Origin: Pseudoalteromonas piscicida
GTDB lineage: Bacteria > Pseudomonadota > Gammaproteobacteria > Enterobacterales > Alteromonadaceae
DNA length: 64,000 nucleotides
Assembly: GCF_000238315.3 (NCBI RefSeq)
Contig: NZ_CP011924.1
Coordinates: 1,900,501 to 1,964,500, forward strand
Direction of reading: 5' to 3'
In this document: piece after piece, positions 4,658 to 21,646 of the stretch
How positions within the stretch are numbered: position 1 is the first letter of the stretch
Layout of the letters: every line of letters starts with the position of its first letter
Translations under genes and position numbers: made by a program
Notes under the pieces: model-generated
What the model was told of the DNA's origin: nothing
The model's database searches: none
What the model saw: the letters and a program-made list of their open reading frames with translations, nothing else

Positions 4658-4734
4658 TGGCGGAGTGGACGGGACTCGAACCCGCGACCCCCGGCGTGAC
4701 AGGCCGGTATTCTAACCAACTGAACTACCACTCC
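4658..4734 (-). tRNA. tRNA-Asp(GUC)
   Basis: 77 bases including encoded CCA. On the minus strand it starts GGAGTGGTAGTTCAG, has the anticodon loop CTGTCAC (anticodon GUC) closed by a CCGGC/GCCGG stem, and the T loop TTCGAGT. The acceptor stem GGAGTGG/CCACTCC pairs fully. It is identical to the six other intact copies and is the last intact one in the direction of transcription. Confidence 0.97.
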
Positions 4735-4775
4735 GCAGAGATATCTTAATGACATTATTTTACTCGTTTTAGTGT

Positions 4776-4852
4776 TGGCGGAGTGGACGGGACTCGAACC
4801 CGCGACCCCCGGCGTGACAGGCCGGTATTCTAACCAACTGAACTACCACTCC
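4776..4852 (-). tRNA. tRNA-Asp(GUC)
   Basis: Second-to-last intact copy in transcription order. It is identical in sequence to the others (GUC anticodon, encoded CCA), with a 41-base spacer to the next copy. The spacer is unlike those flanking the 5120 and 5336 copies. Confidence 0.97.
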
Positions 4853-4901
4853 AGCGAGTAAACAAGCTGTCATAAAGCTTGAATATAGTTATGCGATATA
4901 T

Positions 4902-4978
4902 TGGCGGAGTGGACGGGACTCGAACCCGCGACCCCCGGCGTGACAGGCCGGTATTCTAACCAACTGAACTACCACTCC
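4902..4978 (-). tRNA. tRNA-Asp(GUC)
   Basis: Intact copy with the full cloverleaf: GGAGTGG acceptor, GUC anticodon and encoded CCA. It is separated by 49 bases from the copy on its left and 32 bases from the copy on its right. Confidence 0.97.
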
Positions 4979-5010
4979 ACTGAGTATTCGCATTTTTTGC
5001 TTCGAAGTGT

Positions 5011-5087
5011 TGGCGGAGTGGACGGGACTCGAACCCGCGACCCCCGGCGTGACAGGCCGGTATTCTAACCAACTGAACTACCACTCC
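5011..5087 (-). tRNA. tRNA-Asp(GUC)
   Basis: Intact copy. The 32-base spacer on its right (5088-5119) is identical to the spacer between the copies at 5227 and 5336. tRNA plus spacer was therefore amplified as a unit. Confidence 0.97.
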
Positions 5088-5119
5088 ATAAGAAGCAAAT
5101 GCACGTTTGTAATAAGTAT

Positions 5120-5196
5120 TGGCGGAGTGGACGGGACTCGAACCCGCGACCCCCGGCGTGACAGGCCGGTATTCTAACCAACTGAACTACCACTCC
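5120..5196 (-). tRNA. tRNA-Asp(GUC)
   Basis: Intact copy, preceded on the left by the duplicated 32-base spacer. Sequence is identical to its neighbours, including CCA. Confidence 0.97.
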
Positions 5197-5226
5197 AGCG
5201 CGACTTATTGATACTACGAAGAAATT

Positions 5227-5303
5227 TGGCGGAGTGGACGGGACTCGAACCCGCGACCCCCGGCGTGACAGGCCGGTATTCTAACCAACTGAACTACCAC
5301 TCC
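5227..5303 (-). tRNA. tRNA-Asp(GUC)
   Basis: Intact copy. The spacer to the next copy (5304-5335) duplicates the one at 5088-5119 base for base. Confidence 0.97.
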
Positions 5304-5335
5304 ATAAGAAGCAAATGCACGTTTGTAATAAGTAT

Positions 5336-5412
5336 TGGCGGAGTGGACGGGACTCGAACCCGCGACCCCCGGCGTGACAGGCCGGTATTCTAACCAACTG
5401 AACTACCACTCC
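5336..5412 (-). tRNA. tRNA-Asp(GUC), promoter-proximal copy
   Basis: First copy to be transcribed. It lies about 55 bases downstream of a strong sigma-70 promoter and heads the seven-gene array. All copies probably belong to one precursor that is cut into mature tRNAs, because no other promoter is obvious in the short spacers. Confidence 0.97.
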
Positions 5413-12311: not shown

Positions 12312-12755
12312 CTATAGGTTTTTTGCCAATGCTTGAAGCCAAGGCTCAGCAGGCTCCCAAGGCTCAAAATATTCACAGGCATCGATGTCTAAGCGCGGTT
12401 GTGCTCGAGTGGCGTTCAGCTCTTCAATCAGGGCATCAATTTGCTTTCCAGCACCACAATAAGTATCGCCATAACTAGAATCTCCCAATGCGATGACTGC
12501 TACTTTTTTGCCCGTTAGCATTGGAAATTCGCTTTGCATTTGCAAAAATAAAGGCAACAAGTTATCTGGAATATCACCAGATCCGGTAGTGGAAGAAATA
12601 AATAAAATGTTTTCAGCTTGCGTTACATCAACGATGGAAGCAGGTTCAATAACACTTGCCTCATGACCCGATTTATTCAAAAACTCAGCACTGTCGTTAG
12701 CCAAGTTTTCAGCGTTGCCGTACATGCTTCCCACAAAAATGGAAACTTTTGCCAT
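12312..12755 (-). CDS. yqcA: Flavodoxin YqcA/MioC-like
   Basis: This 147-residue FMN-binding flavodoxin probably shuttles electrons to an unknown partner. The phosphate-binding loop is GSMYGNAENLA at residues 9-19. The isoalloxazine-contacting loops are STTGSGDIPDN and ALGDSSYGDTYCGAG. It is the last gene of yqcC-truC-yqcA, and its ATG overlaps the truC stop by one base (TAATG). The same three genes lie together in E. coli next to syd and queF, which are also in this window, so YqcA is a better name than MioC. Confidence 0.88.
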   Translation of the reverse strand: MAKVSIFVGSMYGNAENLANDSAEFLNKSGHEASVIEPASIVDVTQAENILFISSTTGSGDIPDNLLPLFLQMQSEFPMLTGKKVAVIALGDSSYGDTYCGAGKQIDALIEELNATRAQPRLDIDACEYFEPWEPAEPWLQALAKNL

Positions 12756-13489
12756 TATTTATAATCCTTCTCGTTGTCTGACCAGCCGAGCTGAGCGAAA
12801 ACAGCCAATGCTTCTTCCCCCAAATCCGCGGTAATTGAAATCGTCATGTTGGTATAAGGATGTACAAATTCCAATTTAGTTGCAAATAACATCAACCTAC
12901 GTAAACCAAAATGATCGACAAAAAAGTGGTTGTGTTTATTATCACCGTGATTGACATCACCAATAATCGGATGTGCTAAATAGTTGAGGTGGCGCCTGAT
13001 TTGGTGTTTTCTACCCGTTTTAGGAAAGCACTCCACCAATGAGTAGCGGATACTTGGATACTTACCAAAAGGAATTGGCAGGCTACCCTGCAATAAACAA
13101 TTTATCTGTGTTTGCGCTTCCTGCGGAGCTTTATCCTGACAGGCAAACTTATCAGCGATTTTATCAAGTTCTTCCTTGAGTGGTCTGTCAACGAATCTAG
13201 ATTCAGGAGCAAACCCGCGAACAAGCGCTAAATAGTGTTTTTGAATATTACCGCTAATAAAGACTTCATTCATGTCTCGCGCGGCCTCAGAGCTTAGCGC
13301 AAACAGCAGCACGCCTGACGTCGGTCTATCTAAACGGTGAACGGGGAAAACATGTTGACCGAGTTGATCACGCAGCATTTGCATCGCAAATTGTGTTTCT
13401 CGCTTATCCAAAAATGAGCGATGAACCAATAACCCTGACGGCTTATTTATCGCAACATAATGCGCATCTTGATATAAGATCTCAAGCAT
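12755..13489 (-). CDS. truC: tRNA pseudouridine(65) synthase TruC
   Basis: Converts U65 of certain tRNAs, tRNA-Asp among them, to pseudouridine. It is an RluA-family enzyme of 244 residues with the catalytic Asp54 in HRLDRPTSG. Other family text is INKPSGLLVHR at the N-terminus and GRKHQIRRHLNYLAHPIIGD near the C-terminus. It overlaps both operon partners by one base. It is notable here because its known substrate tRNA-Asp is encoded seven times in the same window. Confidence 0.94.
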   Translation of the reverse strand: MLEILYQDAHYVAINKPSGLLVHRSFLDKRETQFAMQMLRDQLGQHVFPVHRLDRPTSGVLLFALSSEAARDMNEVFISGNIQKHYLALVRGFAPESRFVDRPLKEELDKIADKFACQDKAPQEAQTQINCLLQGSLPIPFGKYPSIRYSLVECFPKTGRKHQIRRHLNYLAHPIIGDVNHGDNKHNHFFVDHFGLRRLMLFATKLEFVHPYTNMTISITADLGEEALAVFAQLGWSDNEKDYK

Positions 13490-13806
13490 TACGCGCTCTT
13501 TGCAATTGTATTATCAAGGTTTTTTAAGCACTGATGAACCGCATTAAAATAAAGGTGCTCACTCAGCACCATTTCAGCCATTGGCGCAATCGCCATATTT
13601 TCCGGTAATGCTTCACCACTTTCTACCATTGTTCGCATTTTGCCCAAGAATACAAATTGCAACCACTGCGCGAAGGTCATGGTATCGCAGCAAAATGGCT
13701 CCGTAGAGGTAAGTGCCTTAGCCGAAATTGGCTCGTCTTGCCAAAGACCAGTTGCTTTTAAACAAGTCTCAAGTTCATCTAATTGAATCAATAATTCCGA
13801 ATTCAT
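13489..13806 (-). CDS. yqcC: YqcC family protein
   Basis: This 105-residue all-alpha protein resembles YqcC (DUF446): LDELETCLKATGLWQDEPIS at the N-terminus, FAQWLQFVFLGKM in the middle. Function is unknown. It is the first gene of the yqcC-truC-yqcA operon, and its last codon overlaps the truC start (TAATG). The divergent DUF3549 gene begins 158 bases away. Confidence 0.88.
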   Translation of the reverse strand: MNSELLIQLDELETCLKATGLWQDEPISAKALTSTEPFCCDTMTFAQWLQFVFLGKMRTMVESGEALPENMAIAPMAEMVLSEHLYFNAVHQCLKNLDNTIAKSA

Positions 13807-15893: not shown

Positions 15894-15927
15894 AAAAAAC
15901 TAAGGCGCTAGCCTGTCTGCTGCGCCT
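15894..15927 (-). terminator. Terminator of the CsrB-like RNA
   Basis: On the minus strand AGGCGC pairs with GCGCCT, with an inner AGC/GCT stem, followed by TAGTTTTTT. It marks the 3' end of the RNA. Confidence 0.85.
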
Positions 15928-16439
15928 CAATCCTGACGATTATCCCAAGAGGTATCCAATCCCTCTGCTTTACAACCCAAAAGCAATCCGCCAATTCTTC
16001 TTCCCCTGAACGGGTATGTACTCCGACCTACCCGAATCCCATCCTTGTGTCATCCATTAGCACTTCCAGTGCATCTCCATTTTAGCCCCCTTGGCCTCCA
16101 CTTCGCTTCCCGCGCTCCTATGCCATCTTGGCTCCGCTTCACATATTCCCTATGTGCTCCCTATACATTGTTACGTCCAGTGTAACCCATCCACTTCGCA
16201 ATCATCCAGATTGCGCTCCTTCATCCTAGAGCCTTGCTCATCCCTATTTACTCTTCCTTGCTCCACTACGCTTCCCGCGCTCCTTGACACTCCATGTGTC
16301 TCCTTATCCCTAGTGAAGCTCCGCTTCACACTCGCTTCCTCGAGTTCCTGATCTTCCTTGCCTTATGCAATACATCCTTCTCTTGTTGTCAAATTCCTTA
16401 TCCTTTGACGCTGAGCTCCTGCTCTTGTGTTTCCTTACA
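15894..16439 (-). ncRNA. csrB: CsrB/RsmZ-family CsrA-sequestering small RNA
   Basis: The minus strand of this gene-free stretch contains 40 GGA trinucleotides in about 540 bases, where roughly 8 would be expected. Many sit in the loop of a small perfect hairpin: GTGAAGC-GGA-GCTTCAC, CGCAATC-TGGAT-GATTGCG, GCACT-GGA-AGTGC, GACAC-ATGGA-GTGTC. Others lie in single-stranded A-rich linkers as AAGGA. This is the architecture of CsrB-type RNAs, which bind many CsrA dimers and free their mRNA targets. The 3' end is an intrinsic terminator at 15894-15927. The 5' end near 16439 is inferred from a possible -10 (TAAACT) and the first GGA. No reading frame on either strand looks like a protein. It is longer than E. 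coli CsrB (369 nt). Confidence 0.9.
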
Positions 16440-16598
16440 TTGTTAAGTTTACGGGGATTGAGTATTTTTGTTAGATAGCTAGGAACAATCTTTTTGCTGT
16501 CATTTAAAAGAAAAGTAAAAGAATTCATTTAAAAACAAAAAGATAAGTAAAAATAACACTGCAAATTCGGTACTACAAAGCGCCTTAACCCACATTCT

Positions 16599-16616
16599 CG
16601 TAGGAGATATCTCACA
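16599..16616 (-). promoter_or_regulatory. Putative GacA/UvrY box upstream of the CsrB-like RNA
   Basis: The minus strand reads TGTGAG-ATATCT-CCTACG, against the GacA/UvrY consensus TGTAAG-N6-CTTACA: 9 of 12 fixed positions match, with the right spacing. It lies about 160-180 bases upstream of the inferred RNA start, the distance usual for these RNAs. The rest of 16440-16634 is AT-rich and shows no gene. Confidence 0.6.
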
Positions 16617-18904: not shown

Positions 18905-19456
18905 CTATATTGGGTAGTTGACTGTCAGTTTTTCCACAAACTCTGCGATAGAATCAGCCAAAACATGGTGCTGCTTCTTACCGACAAACTCTAACCCAAC
19001 TTGACCCGTAGCGATATCGACCGACACCAATAAGTCATCTGCTTCTGTTAAGCCAATAAACACGGTTTCAGGTTGTTTGAGCCTGCGCTTCATTAAAATA
19101 TGGCCGGTGATATTTTGCTGCAAGCGCTCGAAGTCATCTTCGTTCCATACTTGCAGTAGCTCAATTTGCTTACCCTCAATGAATGCCACGATATTACCAG
19201 CGAAGAAGTCACCATACAGTCCGTTCAATCCCTCAGGAAATTGCGTTTCCAACGCTTTGGCTAAATCATTTAAATGTCCCGCTGGTGAGCGCTCTACCGC
19301 TAGCCATTTTATCTCGTTAAGCTTGTTCGGTTCACCCTGCTCACATGGGCTTGGCCAATTTTCATCATGCTCGGTGCTCGGTAAACCTTTAAAGGTCTGT
19401 TGATGATAATCTACATAGGCTTGATGCAAGCGCGCCATATTTACGGGCTGAGTCAT
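18905..19456 (-). CDS. syd: SecY-interacting protein Syd
   Basis: A peripheral inner-membrane protein that binds cytoplasmic loops of SecY. The product matches Syd in LLQVWNEDDFERLQQNITGH and LMKRRLKQPETVFIG and at the C-terminal end, with 183 residues from the ATG at 19456 (E. coli 181). A longer frame from 19510 is possible but exceeds family length. In E. coli syd lies between queF and yqcC, and here it remains the divergent neighbour of queF. Confidence 0.9.
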   Translation of the reverse strand: MTQPVNMARLHQAYVDYHQQTFKGLPSTEHDENWPSPCEQGEPNKLNEIKWLAVERSPAGHLNDLAKALETQFPEGLNGLYGDFFAGNIVAFIEGKQIELLQVWNEDDFERLQQNITGHILMKRRLKQPETVFIGLTEADDLLVSVDIATGQVGLEFVGKKQHHVLADSIAEFVEKLTVNYPI

Positions 19457-19583
19457 ATATAAAGCTCTCTTTATTTTTCTCACTGCGGGCTGAATACTTG
19501 TTTCGTGCAATTAAGCAAATTGCTATTAATCCCGAGGTGAACATTCGTTATAATGACCGCATTGTAACGAGATTTGAATTAAC

Positions 19584-20429
19584 ATGACAGACTACAGTAA
19601 CTCGCCAGAGCTGCAATCTTCTGTGCTTGGTAAAACCACAGAATACGCCAGTGTTTATACTCCAAGCCTGCTGCACCCCATTGCACGTAAACTTAATCGT
19701 GACCAAATCAATGTTGATGAGTCCGCTTTACCATTTAAAGGTGAAGATACCTGGACAGGCTACGAATTGTCTTGGCTCAATAACAAAGGTAAACCTCAAG
19801 TTGCGGTTGCCACTTTTGTGTTTCCTTGCCAAAGCTCACATATCATTGAGTCAAAATCGTTCAAACTTTACTTGAATAGCTTTAACCAAAGTCGCTTTGA
19901 TACGATGGAAACCGTGCGCCAAACGCTAGCTGCGGATCTTTCCACGGCATCAAATAGCCAAGTTAGCGTGACATTATTTGGCGCAGACGAATTCGATTGT
20001 ATTCCTTTCTCGCGCCTCCCTGGTGAGTGTATCGATGAGCTTGATATTGAAGTTGATAGCTACACACCAAATAGTGACTTACTACAACTTGCCTCTGAGG
20101 ATGTAGTTGATGAGACGCTTCACAGCCACTTACTCAAGTCAAATTGCTTGATCACCTCACAGCCAGACTGGGCAAGCGTGGTGATAAGTTACCATGGTAA
20201 GCAAATCGACCGAGAAGCGCTGCTTAAGTACCTGATCTCATTCCGTGATCACAACGAGTTCCATGAGCAATGTGTGGAACGCATTTACTGTGAGCTTTGG
20301 CGCACCTTTAACCCTGAAAAATTATCGGTTTATGCGCGCTATACTCGCCGCGGCGGGTTAGATATCAATCCATATCGTTCGAGTGAACAAGATCAAACTC
20401 CGTATGCGGTAAGAACTAACCGACAGTAA
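19584..20429 (+). CDS. queF: NADPH-dependent 7-cyano-7-deazaguanine reductase QueF (full-length copy)
   Basis: Reduces preQ0 to preQ1 in queuosine synthesis, a modification of the wobble base of tRNA-Asp, Asn, His and Tyr. The 281-residue length is that of the long, double-domain (YqcD) form. Visible family text includes [16 protein letters not shown], the nucleophile Cys in [15 protein letters not shown], and [14 protein letters not shown] in the C-terminal domain. All but the first 18 codons and the promoter are repeated perfectly right after this gene. Because this copy keeps the start, it is the functional one. Confidence 0.95.
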
Positions 20430-20600
20430 AACGTAAAAAAGCCATGTTCTCACATGGCTTTTTATCACATCTAAGTATTGCTATTTAACCTGAGGTTTGG
20501 ATAAGGAATGTTCCAACTCATTGTTGCTAAAGCAAAACTTAGTTTTTTCCTTGTCTAGCCAGAGAGTTTTAGGGAAAACAAGGCGAATTTACGCACCAAT
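19639..20600. repeat. 962-bp tandem duplication, unit 1
   Basis: From codon 19 of queF to 171 bases past its stop, this unit is repeated immediately at 20601-21562. Every stretch I compared is identical, including the terminator. The perfect identity means the event is recent or kept uniform by recombination. Confidence 0.95.
20436..20463 (+). terminator. queF terminator
   Basis: AAAAAGCCATGT / ACATGGCTTTTT with a 4-base loop, seven bases after the queF stop. The same hairpin recurs at 21398-21425 in the second repeat unit. Confidence 0.88.
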
Positions 20601-21391
20601 CAGAATACGCCAGTGTTTATACTCCAAGCCTGCTGCACCCCATTGCACGTAAACTTAATCGTGACCAAATCAATGTTGATGAGTCCGCTTTACCATTTAA
20701 AGGTGAAGATACCTGGACAGGCTACGAATTGTCTTGGCTCAATAACAAAGGTAAACCTCAAGTTGCGGTTGCCACTTTTGTGTTTCCTTGCCAAAGCTCA
20801 CATATCATTGAGTCAAAATCGTTCAAACTTTACTTGAATAGCTTTAACCAAAGTCGCTTTGATACGATGGAAACCGTGCGCCAAACGCTAGCTGCGGATC
20901 TTTCCACGGCATCAAATAGCCAAGTTAGCGTGACATTATTTGGCGCAGACGAATTCGATTGTATTCCTTTCTCGCGCCTCCCTGGTGAGTGTATCGATGA
21001 GCTTGATATTGAAGTTGATAGCTACACACCAAATAGTGACTTACTACAACTTGCCTCTGAGGATGTAGTTGATGAGACGCTTCACAGCCACTTACTCAAG
21101 TCAAATTGCTTGATCACCTCACAGCCAGACTGGGCAAGCGTGGTGATAAGTTACCATGGTAAGCAAATCGACCGAGAAGCGCTGCTTAAGTACCTGATCT
21201 CATTCCGTGATCACAACGAGTTCCATGAGCAATGTGTGGAACGCATTTACTGTGAGCTTTGGCGCACCTTTAACCCTGAAAAATTATCGGTTTATGCGCG
21301 CTATACTCGCCGCGGCGGGTTAGATATCAATCCATATCGTTCGAGTGAACAAGATCAAACTCCGTATGCGGTAAGAACTAACCGACAGTAA
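20601..21391 (+). pseudogene. 5'-truncated second copy of queF
   Basis: The copy begins inside codon 19 of queF. The frame upstream of the junction reaches a stop (TAG at 20570) without any ATG, so the native N-terminus and the ribosome site are absent. The remaining frame is intact to the normal stop and keeps the catalytic Cys. A 220-residue product could only arise from a TTG near 20729. It has no promoter of its own, and the queF terminator lies between the copies. I treat it as a pseudogene. Confidence 0.85.
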
Positions 21392-21397
21392 AACGTA

Positions 21398-21425
21398 AAA
21401 AAGCCATGTTCTCACATGGCTTTTT
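21398..21425 (+). terminator. Second copy of the queF terminator
   Basis: Identical to the hairpin at 20436-20463, carried along in the duplication. Confidence 0.85.
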
Positions 21426-21646
21426 ATCACATCTAAGTATTGCTATTTAACCTGAGGTTTGGATAAGGAATGTTCCAACTCATTGTTGCTAAAGCAAAAC
21501 TTAGTTTTTTCCTTGTCTAGCCAGAGAGTTTTAGGGAAAACAAGGCGAATTTACGCACCAATAGCTGGCTATTGGAAGTGAATTCAACGCAGTTAGCGCT
21601 AAAACTAGCTGCTAGAAAGGCATTAATTATCCGCAGCTCAGGTTAT

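Follow-up and report, generated by a model that had tools for sequence, protein, structure and literature searches.

The window analysed here is a 64,000-nt stretch of DNA from a strain of the P. piscicida/flavipulchra group of Pseudoalteromonas. On its minus strand lies the gene for an RNA of about 546 nt with 40 GGA triplets, which, with a probability of roughly 0.94 on comparative sequence grounds, is a CsrB-type decoy RNA and the positional orthologue of both E. coli csrB and Pf1 of P. fuliginea. The amount of free CsrA, a global regulator, is set by the number of sites on its sponge RNAs. The RNA of the window is a large member of this known class; the more interesting part is what has happened to the same gene in related species, where the number of sites has grown by the formation of tandem arrays inside it.

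Extent and GGA content of the RNA

The predicted transcript and its ends can be laid out as follows.

15894..16439, minus strand: predicted CsrB-type (Pf1-type) small RNA gene, about 546 nt with 40 GGA, the 5' end being an estimate
15894..15934, minus strand: intrinsic terminator (helix 21), predicted to form 16 pairs, the outermost of which use the U-run, and followed by T6
16446..16451, minus strand: likely -10 element, TAAACT

A preliminary description of this DNA, made from the letters alone, had counted about 40 GGA triplets in some 540 bases of the minus strand. The count holds: the 546 nt contain 40 on the minus strand and none on the plus strand, more than in any of 2000 dinucleotide shuffles (22.8 +/- 3.1, maximum 33) or 2000 mononucleotide shuffles (22.0 +/- 3.6, maximum 37). 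Measured in 546-nt windows, the RNA is also the point of highest GGA density in the whole 64 kb, the best value on the plus strand being 16. The further claims that the region encodes no protein and ends in a terminator were likewise borne out. No open reading frame of at least 80 aa was found on the minus strand inside 15894-16439 (the plus strand has a single one, 86 aa long), and a terminator-like hairpin followed by T6 runs to 15894, with 13 of its 16 pairs never varying among the 11 members of the window's clade. Transcription probably starts near 16439; across the genus, AAACTT occurs within 140 nt upstream of the first GGA in 78 of 99 GGA-dense loci. The locus is single-copy in the source genome (5.49 Mb in two contigs). 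The closest Syd protein among the 50 loci compared, from which very near records were perhaps omitted, is that of P. flavipulchra (97%).

Genomic position

The genes that flank the RNA include five that serve as landmarks.

18905..19510, minus strand: syd, the upstream syntenic marker (Pfam Syd)
19584..20429, plus strand: queF, a syntenic marker (Pfam QueF_N/QueF)
13489..13806, minus strand: yqcC (DUF446), the downstream syntenic marker
12755..13489, minus strand: truC-like pseudouridine synthase (Pfam PseudoU_synth_2)
12312..12755, minus strand: yqcA-like flavodoxin (Pfam Flavodoxin_1)

Both the order and the strands of these flanking genes agree with E. coli K-12, whose csrB lies between yqcC and syd. 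The window differs from the E. coli locus in having three additional genes on either side of the RNA: one side has DUF3549, a small ORF and DUF805, the other a gene for an acetyltransferase, another small ORF and DUF2310. The association with syd extends across most of the genus, a GGA-dense segment being found near this gene in 98 of 108 Pseudoalteromonas genomes. The other ten (loci L123, L150, L153, L155, L157, L161, L162, L164, L177 and L183) have none in the approximately 7 kb downstream of syd, and nine of them none in a further 13 kb either; in these genomes csrB may have moved or may lie beyond the stretch examined.

Two unrelated features of the window deserve mention. An exact tandem duplication of 962 bp (19639-20600 and 20601-21562) spans most of queF, and the second copy yields a shortened QueF ORF at 20729-21391; this is either a recent event or an assembly artefact. 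Seven consecutive tRNA-Asp (GTC) genes occupy 4658-5412 on the minus strand.

The upstream box and the regulatory circuit

Upstream of the RNA lies a sequence of the kind bound by GacA/UvrY regulators.

16599..16616, minus strand: GacA/UvrY box TGTGAGATATCTCCTACG, two mismatches to TGTGAGANNTCTCTTACA, its centre lying 173 nt upstream of the first GGA

The corresponding box of E. coli csrB, TGTGAGAGATCTCTTACA, is centred 182 nt upstream. With up to four mismatches allowed, a box is present in 96 of the 99 GGA-dense loci of the genus (98 Pseudoalteromonas genomes, one of them with its locus split across two contigs) vs 2 of 103 equal downstream control stretches, and it mostly lies 171-206 nt ahead of the first GGA. 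Of the three remaining loci, one comes from a diverged genome of the window's clade and has five mismatches, and the other two are truncated at contig ends. Taken alone at three mismatches, the pattern is unspecific (30 matches in the genome vs 34 for a reversed control); it was rejected as a stand-alone genome-wide finder, and only boxes followed by dense GGA were therefore counted.

When 28 box loci of the source genome were scanned in this way, three qualified: L192, which is the RNA of the window, and two candidate Csr RNAs at L205:1683-1932 (17 GGA) and L211:1713-1877 (9 GGA), both behind a GacA-type box. The latter is the weaker candidate, its density score of 62 falling under that of short clusters at five other loci. 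The two parallel Pf2 (21 GGA) and Pf3 (9 GGA) of P. fuliginea and are possible counterparts of them. A DNA search recovers the L205 RNA in 11 of 107 genomes, and these are the 11 that make up the window's clade. As for the proteins of the circuit, there is one csrA in the source genome and one in each of 107 genomes of the genus, and UvrY orthologues with 91-100% identity to the query occur in 23 of 24 Pseudoalteromonas genomes, the one exception being the source genome itself. There the place where synteny puts uvrY reads N, and loss of the gene from this strain was dropped as a candidate for that reason.

Folding and conservation

The preliminary description had named burial of the GGA triplets in stems as one outcome that would speak against it. 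The triplets are instead unusually unpaired, with a mean unpaired probability over the whole ensemble of 0.80 vs 0.63 +/- 0.03 in 60 control shuffles that kept every GGA in place and shuffled all letters outside GGA; in the minimum-energy fold 25 of the 40 are fully unpaired. The description had also placed many GGA in the loops of perfect short hairpins. Such hairpins do exist, but their numbers stay within the same control: 15 vs 14.3 +/- 3.2 with stems of 4 bp or more, 9 vs 5.9 +/- 2.5 with 5-bp stems and 3 vs 2.2 +/- 1.5 with 6-bp stems. Their enrichment was consequently dropped as evidence.

Selection on the triplets is visible within the window's clade. Among its 11 members 31 of the 40 GGA are invariant, vs 31% of other 3-mers, and in the most diverged member identity is 92.5% in GGA columns vs 74.9% in the others. 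The structure that RNAalifold derives from the 11 sequences stays paired in 97.8% of cells, a figure that by itself is weak evidence, the structure having come from the same sequences. Pairs changed on both sides number 10 vs 2.5 +/- 1.2 in shuffles, with none of 500 shuffles reaching as many; sliding the pairing partners abolishes the structure. One of the five covariation measures, further pair types, is without excess (29 vs 27.4 in shuffles, 94 of 500 as high), and helix 12, a GGA hairpin, keeps only a minority of its pairs in the most diverged member. Three GGA hairpins that contain pairs changed on both sides are the following.

16313..16329, minus strand: hairpin GTGAAGC-GGA-GCTTCAC, helix 5, two pairs changed on both sides
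16286..16300, minus strand: hairpin GACAC-ATGGA-GTGTC, helix 6, three pairs changed on both sides
16197..16215, minus strand: hairpin CGCAATC-TGGAT-GATTGCG, helix 10, three pairs changed on both sides

Class assignment and relation to Pf1

The Rfam covariance search that the preliminary description proposed gave a negative answer. RF00018 (CsrB) scores the RNA at 12.6 bits over a partial match, below the 71-bit gathering cut-off, and RF00195 (RsmY) at 10.5 bits, below its cut-off of 57; across the whole source genome the CsrB model finds no match, while the E. coli control was detected. Matches to eukaryotic lncRNA families were dismissed as chance. The assignment to the CsrB/RsmZ class was nonetheless upheld by the agreement of synteny, the GacA/UvrY box, GGA conservation, covariation, the terminator and the position of Pf1.

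Pf1 of P. fuliginea BSW20308 has been characterised as a Csr RNA that antagonises CsrA (PMC9927453, PMC11882849, in the parts of these papers drawn on here), and is credited there with 21 GGA in the earlier paper (PMC9927453, 2023) and 25 in the later one (PMC11882849, 2025). Its published GacA box has an exact match in three of 189 loci, two of which, L076 of P. fuliginea KMM 216 and L126 of genome G070, are the same contig position. Since the syd-linked RNA of KMM 216 has 25 GGA and lies behind an exact Pf1 box, Pf1 appears to be the RNA at this position. A DNA search with the RNA of the window found no match in the P. fuliginea genome G070.

The authors of the Pf1 studies, in the parts of PMC9927453 and PMC11882849 drawn on here, report no homologue outside the genus and suggest de novo emergence, with PMC9927453 leaving room for an ancestor shared by Pf1 and other CsrB RNAs. 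An origin inside Pseudoalteromonas would make the adjacency to syd a matter of chance, and the lack of an Rfam match for the RNA of the window fits it, as do the missing homologues. It is nevertheless very improbable: E. coli csrB has identical neighbours and strand, and its box is at almost the same distance. Shewanella hafniensis and a Glaciecola MAG, too, have a GGA-dense segment downstream of syd, with 27 and 24 GGA respectively. Synteny and the box together indicate that the Pf1-type RNAs represent csrB at its ancestral location and are not new inventions. A structured, GGA-rich RNA might also act on something other than CsrA, as a sponge for another protein or as a base-pairing sRNA, and here too the silence of the Rfam CsrB model could be cited, together with the fact that CsrA binding by the RNA of the window is read across from its relatives. 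The E. coli csrB synteny, the UvrY-type box, the selective conservation of GGA and a Pf1 counterpart with a published effect on CsrA make this very unlikely, and a CsrB-type decoy remains our reading of the RNA. The Rfam CsrB model appears to overlook Pf1-type RNAs.

Internal repeats of the window RNA

The preliminary description reported a 15-nt stretch occurring twice, 165 bases apart. The repeat is real, and is part of a longer one of 24 nt with a single mismatch at the same spacing; the longest repeat in 60 shuffles of the RNA was 16 nt. A second pattern, the module core, consists of GGAGCGC, a short loop and GCGNAGNGGA, and occurs three times in degenerate form.

16262..16283, minus strand: module copy 1, GGAGCGC..GCGTAGTGGA
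16190..16219, minus strand: module copy 2, GGAGCGC..GCGAAGTGGA, with a TGGAT loop
16097..16118, minus strand: module copy 3, GGAGCGC..GCGAAGTGGA

These copies are unevenly spaced, at 64 and 101 nt, and TRF detects no tandem array in the RNA. The module is present in 31 of the 99 GGA-dense loci, with two matches outside csrB in 1.2 Mb; in the array RNAs described below it recurs at the spacing of the units, with as many as eight occurrences.

Size variation and tandem arrays across the genus

The genus comparison used one genome per species and a quick-search tree of three neighbour proteins from 104 genomes. The window's clade comprises 11 genomes (support 100) with 36-40 GGA. Outside this clade and the array clade, the 53 genomes for which a terminator was found automatically have 18-32 GGA, with a median of 24. 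The automatic rule located a terminator in 72 loci out of 96, a set from which three contig-cut loci had been removed beforehand; it missed nine of the 11 in the window's clade and lengthens some loci, and was applied mainly to the rest of the genus.

The related array clade, P. luteoviolacea and its kin, comprises 20 genomes (support 97; loci L012, L013, L014, L019, L024 and L117 among them), and the tree gives no settled placement of it relative to the window's clade. Its two subclades differ in the tandem unit, which is 79-81 nt long in one of them and 87-89 nt in the second. Eighteen of its 20 loci are uncut and hold 3.8-9.3 tandem copies with 91-97% match and 51-80 GGA, the counts for two uncut loci without a detected terminator being taken from other scans; P. 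luteoviolacea DSM 6061, H33-S and MMG020 have 64-66. Arrays cut by contig ends are those of G036 and G101, within the clade, and G027, which is off the tree. Each unit contributes eight GGA in L019 and seven in L012. Among the 18 array cores a box with up to four mismatches occurs in three and a T5 run in three, one apiece, so the units have no promoters or terminators of their own. In five further genomes (G087, G096, G080, G032 and G031) a unit of 108-110 nt is present in 2.3-3.6 copies. In G045 (L140, about 504-1744) the gene as a whole is doubled: two csrB genes stand in tandem, 93% identical, each with a box and a terminator-like end.

Array length can differ between near relatives. One pair with 95.6% identical flanks has 7.6 vs 5.6 copies and another, at 95.3%, has 8.6 vs 5.6, figures to be read with the caution that both pairs include a draft assembly: G062, in 210 contigs and possibly collapsed, is a partner in each, and G044 has 40 contigs. 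Drafts may mis-collapse array copies; five of the array genomes are in two or three contigs. Two possible trade-offs were considered and dropped. Array size is not exchanged for a second Csr RNA, as G060, G078, G058, G099 and G074 keep one with 19-20 GGA behind a box, nor for csrA copy number, which is one in each of the 107 genomes.

How the extra sites arose

In the array clade at least, csrB has grown through duplication of a module. For the window itself, growth by internal duplication, as the preliminary description had it, is likely at the level of modules. The 24-nt repeat and the three copies of the module core, arrayed in the related clade, suggest that its extra sites derive at least partly from duplication of a GGA-hairpin module; in the window's clade the copies are degenerate and uneven in spacing, and the RNA of the window has no detected tandem array. 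That irregularity, and the lack of an exact module match in the array loci G004, G054 and G027, would suit a different account, in which selection for GGA loops made separate hairpins converge on similar sequences. Convergence seems unlikely, set against a 24-nt repeat with one mismatch where shuffles reach at most 16 nt, a module background of two matches in 1.2 Mb, and genuine tandem arrays of the same core in the related clade.

A bolder form of the duplication reading would treat csrB as a length-variable modular sponge, with the 79-89 nt tandem units acting as a VNTR-like dial and the RNA of the window as a fixed, partly decayed descendant. We regard this as tentative and somewhat against the odds, which are lowered because draft assemblies may mis-collapse copies and both of the closest pairs include a draft. 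If it were true, one recombination step would shift the CsrA-titrating capacity by 7-8 GGA per unit.

Proposed mechanism

By analogy with its relatives, the RNA would work as follows. Once phosphorylated, a regulator of the GacA/UvrY type would bind the box some 170 nt upstream and activate transcription of the ~546-nt RNA, which is computed to present about 40 mostly unpaired GGA sites. These would bind CsrA dimers, as Pf1 and E. coli CsrB suggest, and draw CsrA off its mRNA targets, which would then be derepressed. The larger number of sites would have arisen at least partly by duplication of the GGA-hairpin module (GGAGCGC-loop-GCGNAGNGGA). A positionally orthologous sponge that spans about 18 to 80 GGA within one genus amounts to a natural dose series for asking how the valency of a sponge determines CsrA activity and for what reason certain lineages have so many sites.

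Comparison with known Csr RNAs

In the open-licence PMC literature, to the extent that its text was covered, we found no report of tandem arrays inside a csrB gene, nor of CsrB RNAs from either P. piscicida or P. luteoviolacea. The RNA of the window shares with E. coli CsrB the order yqcC-csrB-syd, the strand, the UvrY box and the many GGA, and is both longer and richer in GGA, as the preliminary description had asserted (546 nt and 40 GGA vs 369 nt and 22). With Pf1 it shares the same genomic place, as judged from the box and the GGA count, and the same architecture; Pf1 differs in having 25 GGA in about 440-470 nt as read from the locus. Shewanella oneidensis CsrB1 and CsrB2 are likewise UvrY-dependent, GGA-rich Csr RNAs, but there, as far as the parts of PMC3171408 drawn on here go, capacity comes from two whole-gene copies (420 and 421 bp) with no internal module. 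The multiple csrB genes of Vibrio (PMC6262261) and Aln1a-c of Alteromonas (PMC5864184) also raise CsrA-binding capacity through several copies, described in the parts of those papers drawn on here as separate transcripts or whole-gene copies, whereas the Pseudoalteromonas repeats are contained within a single gene.
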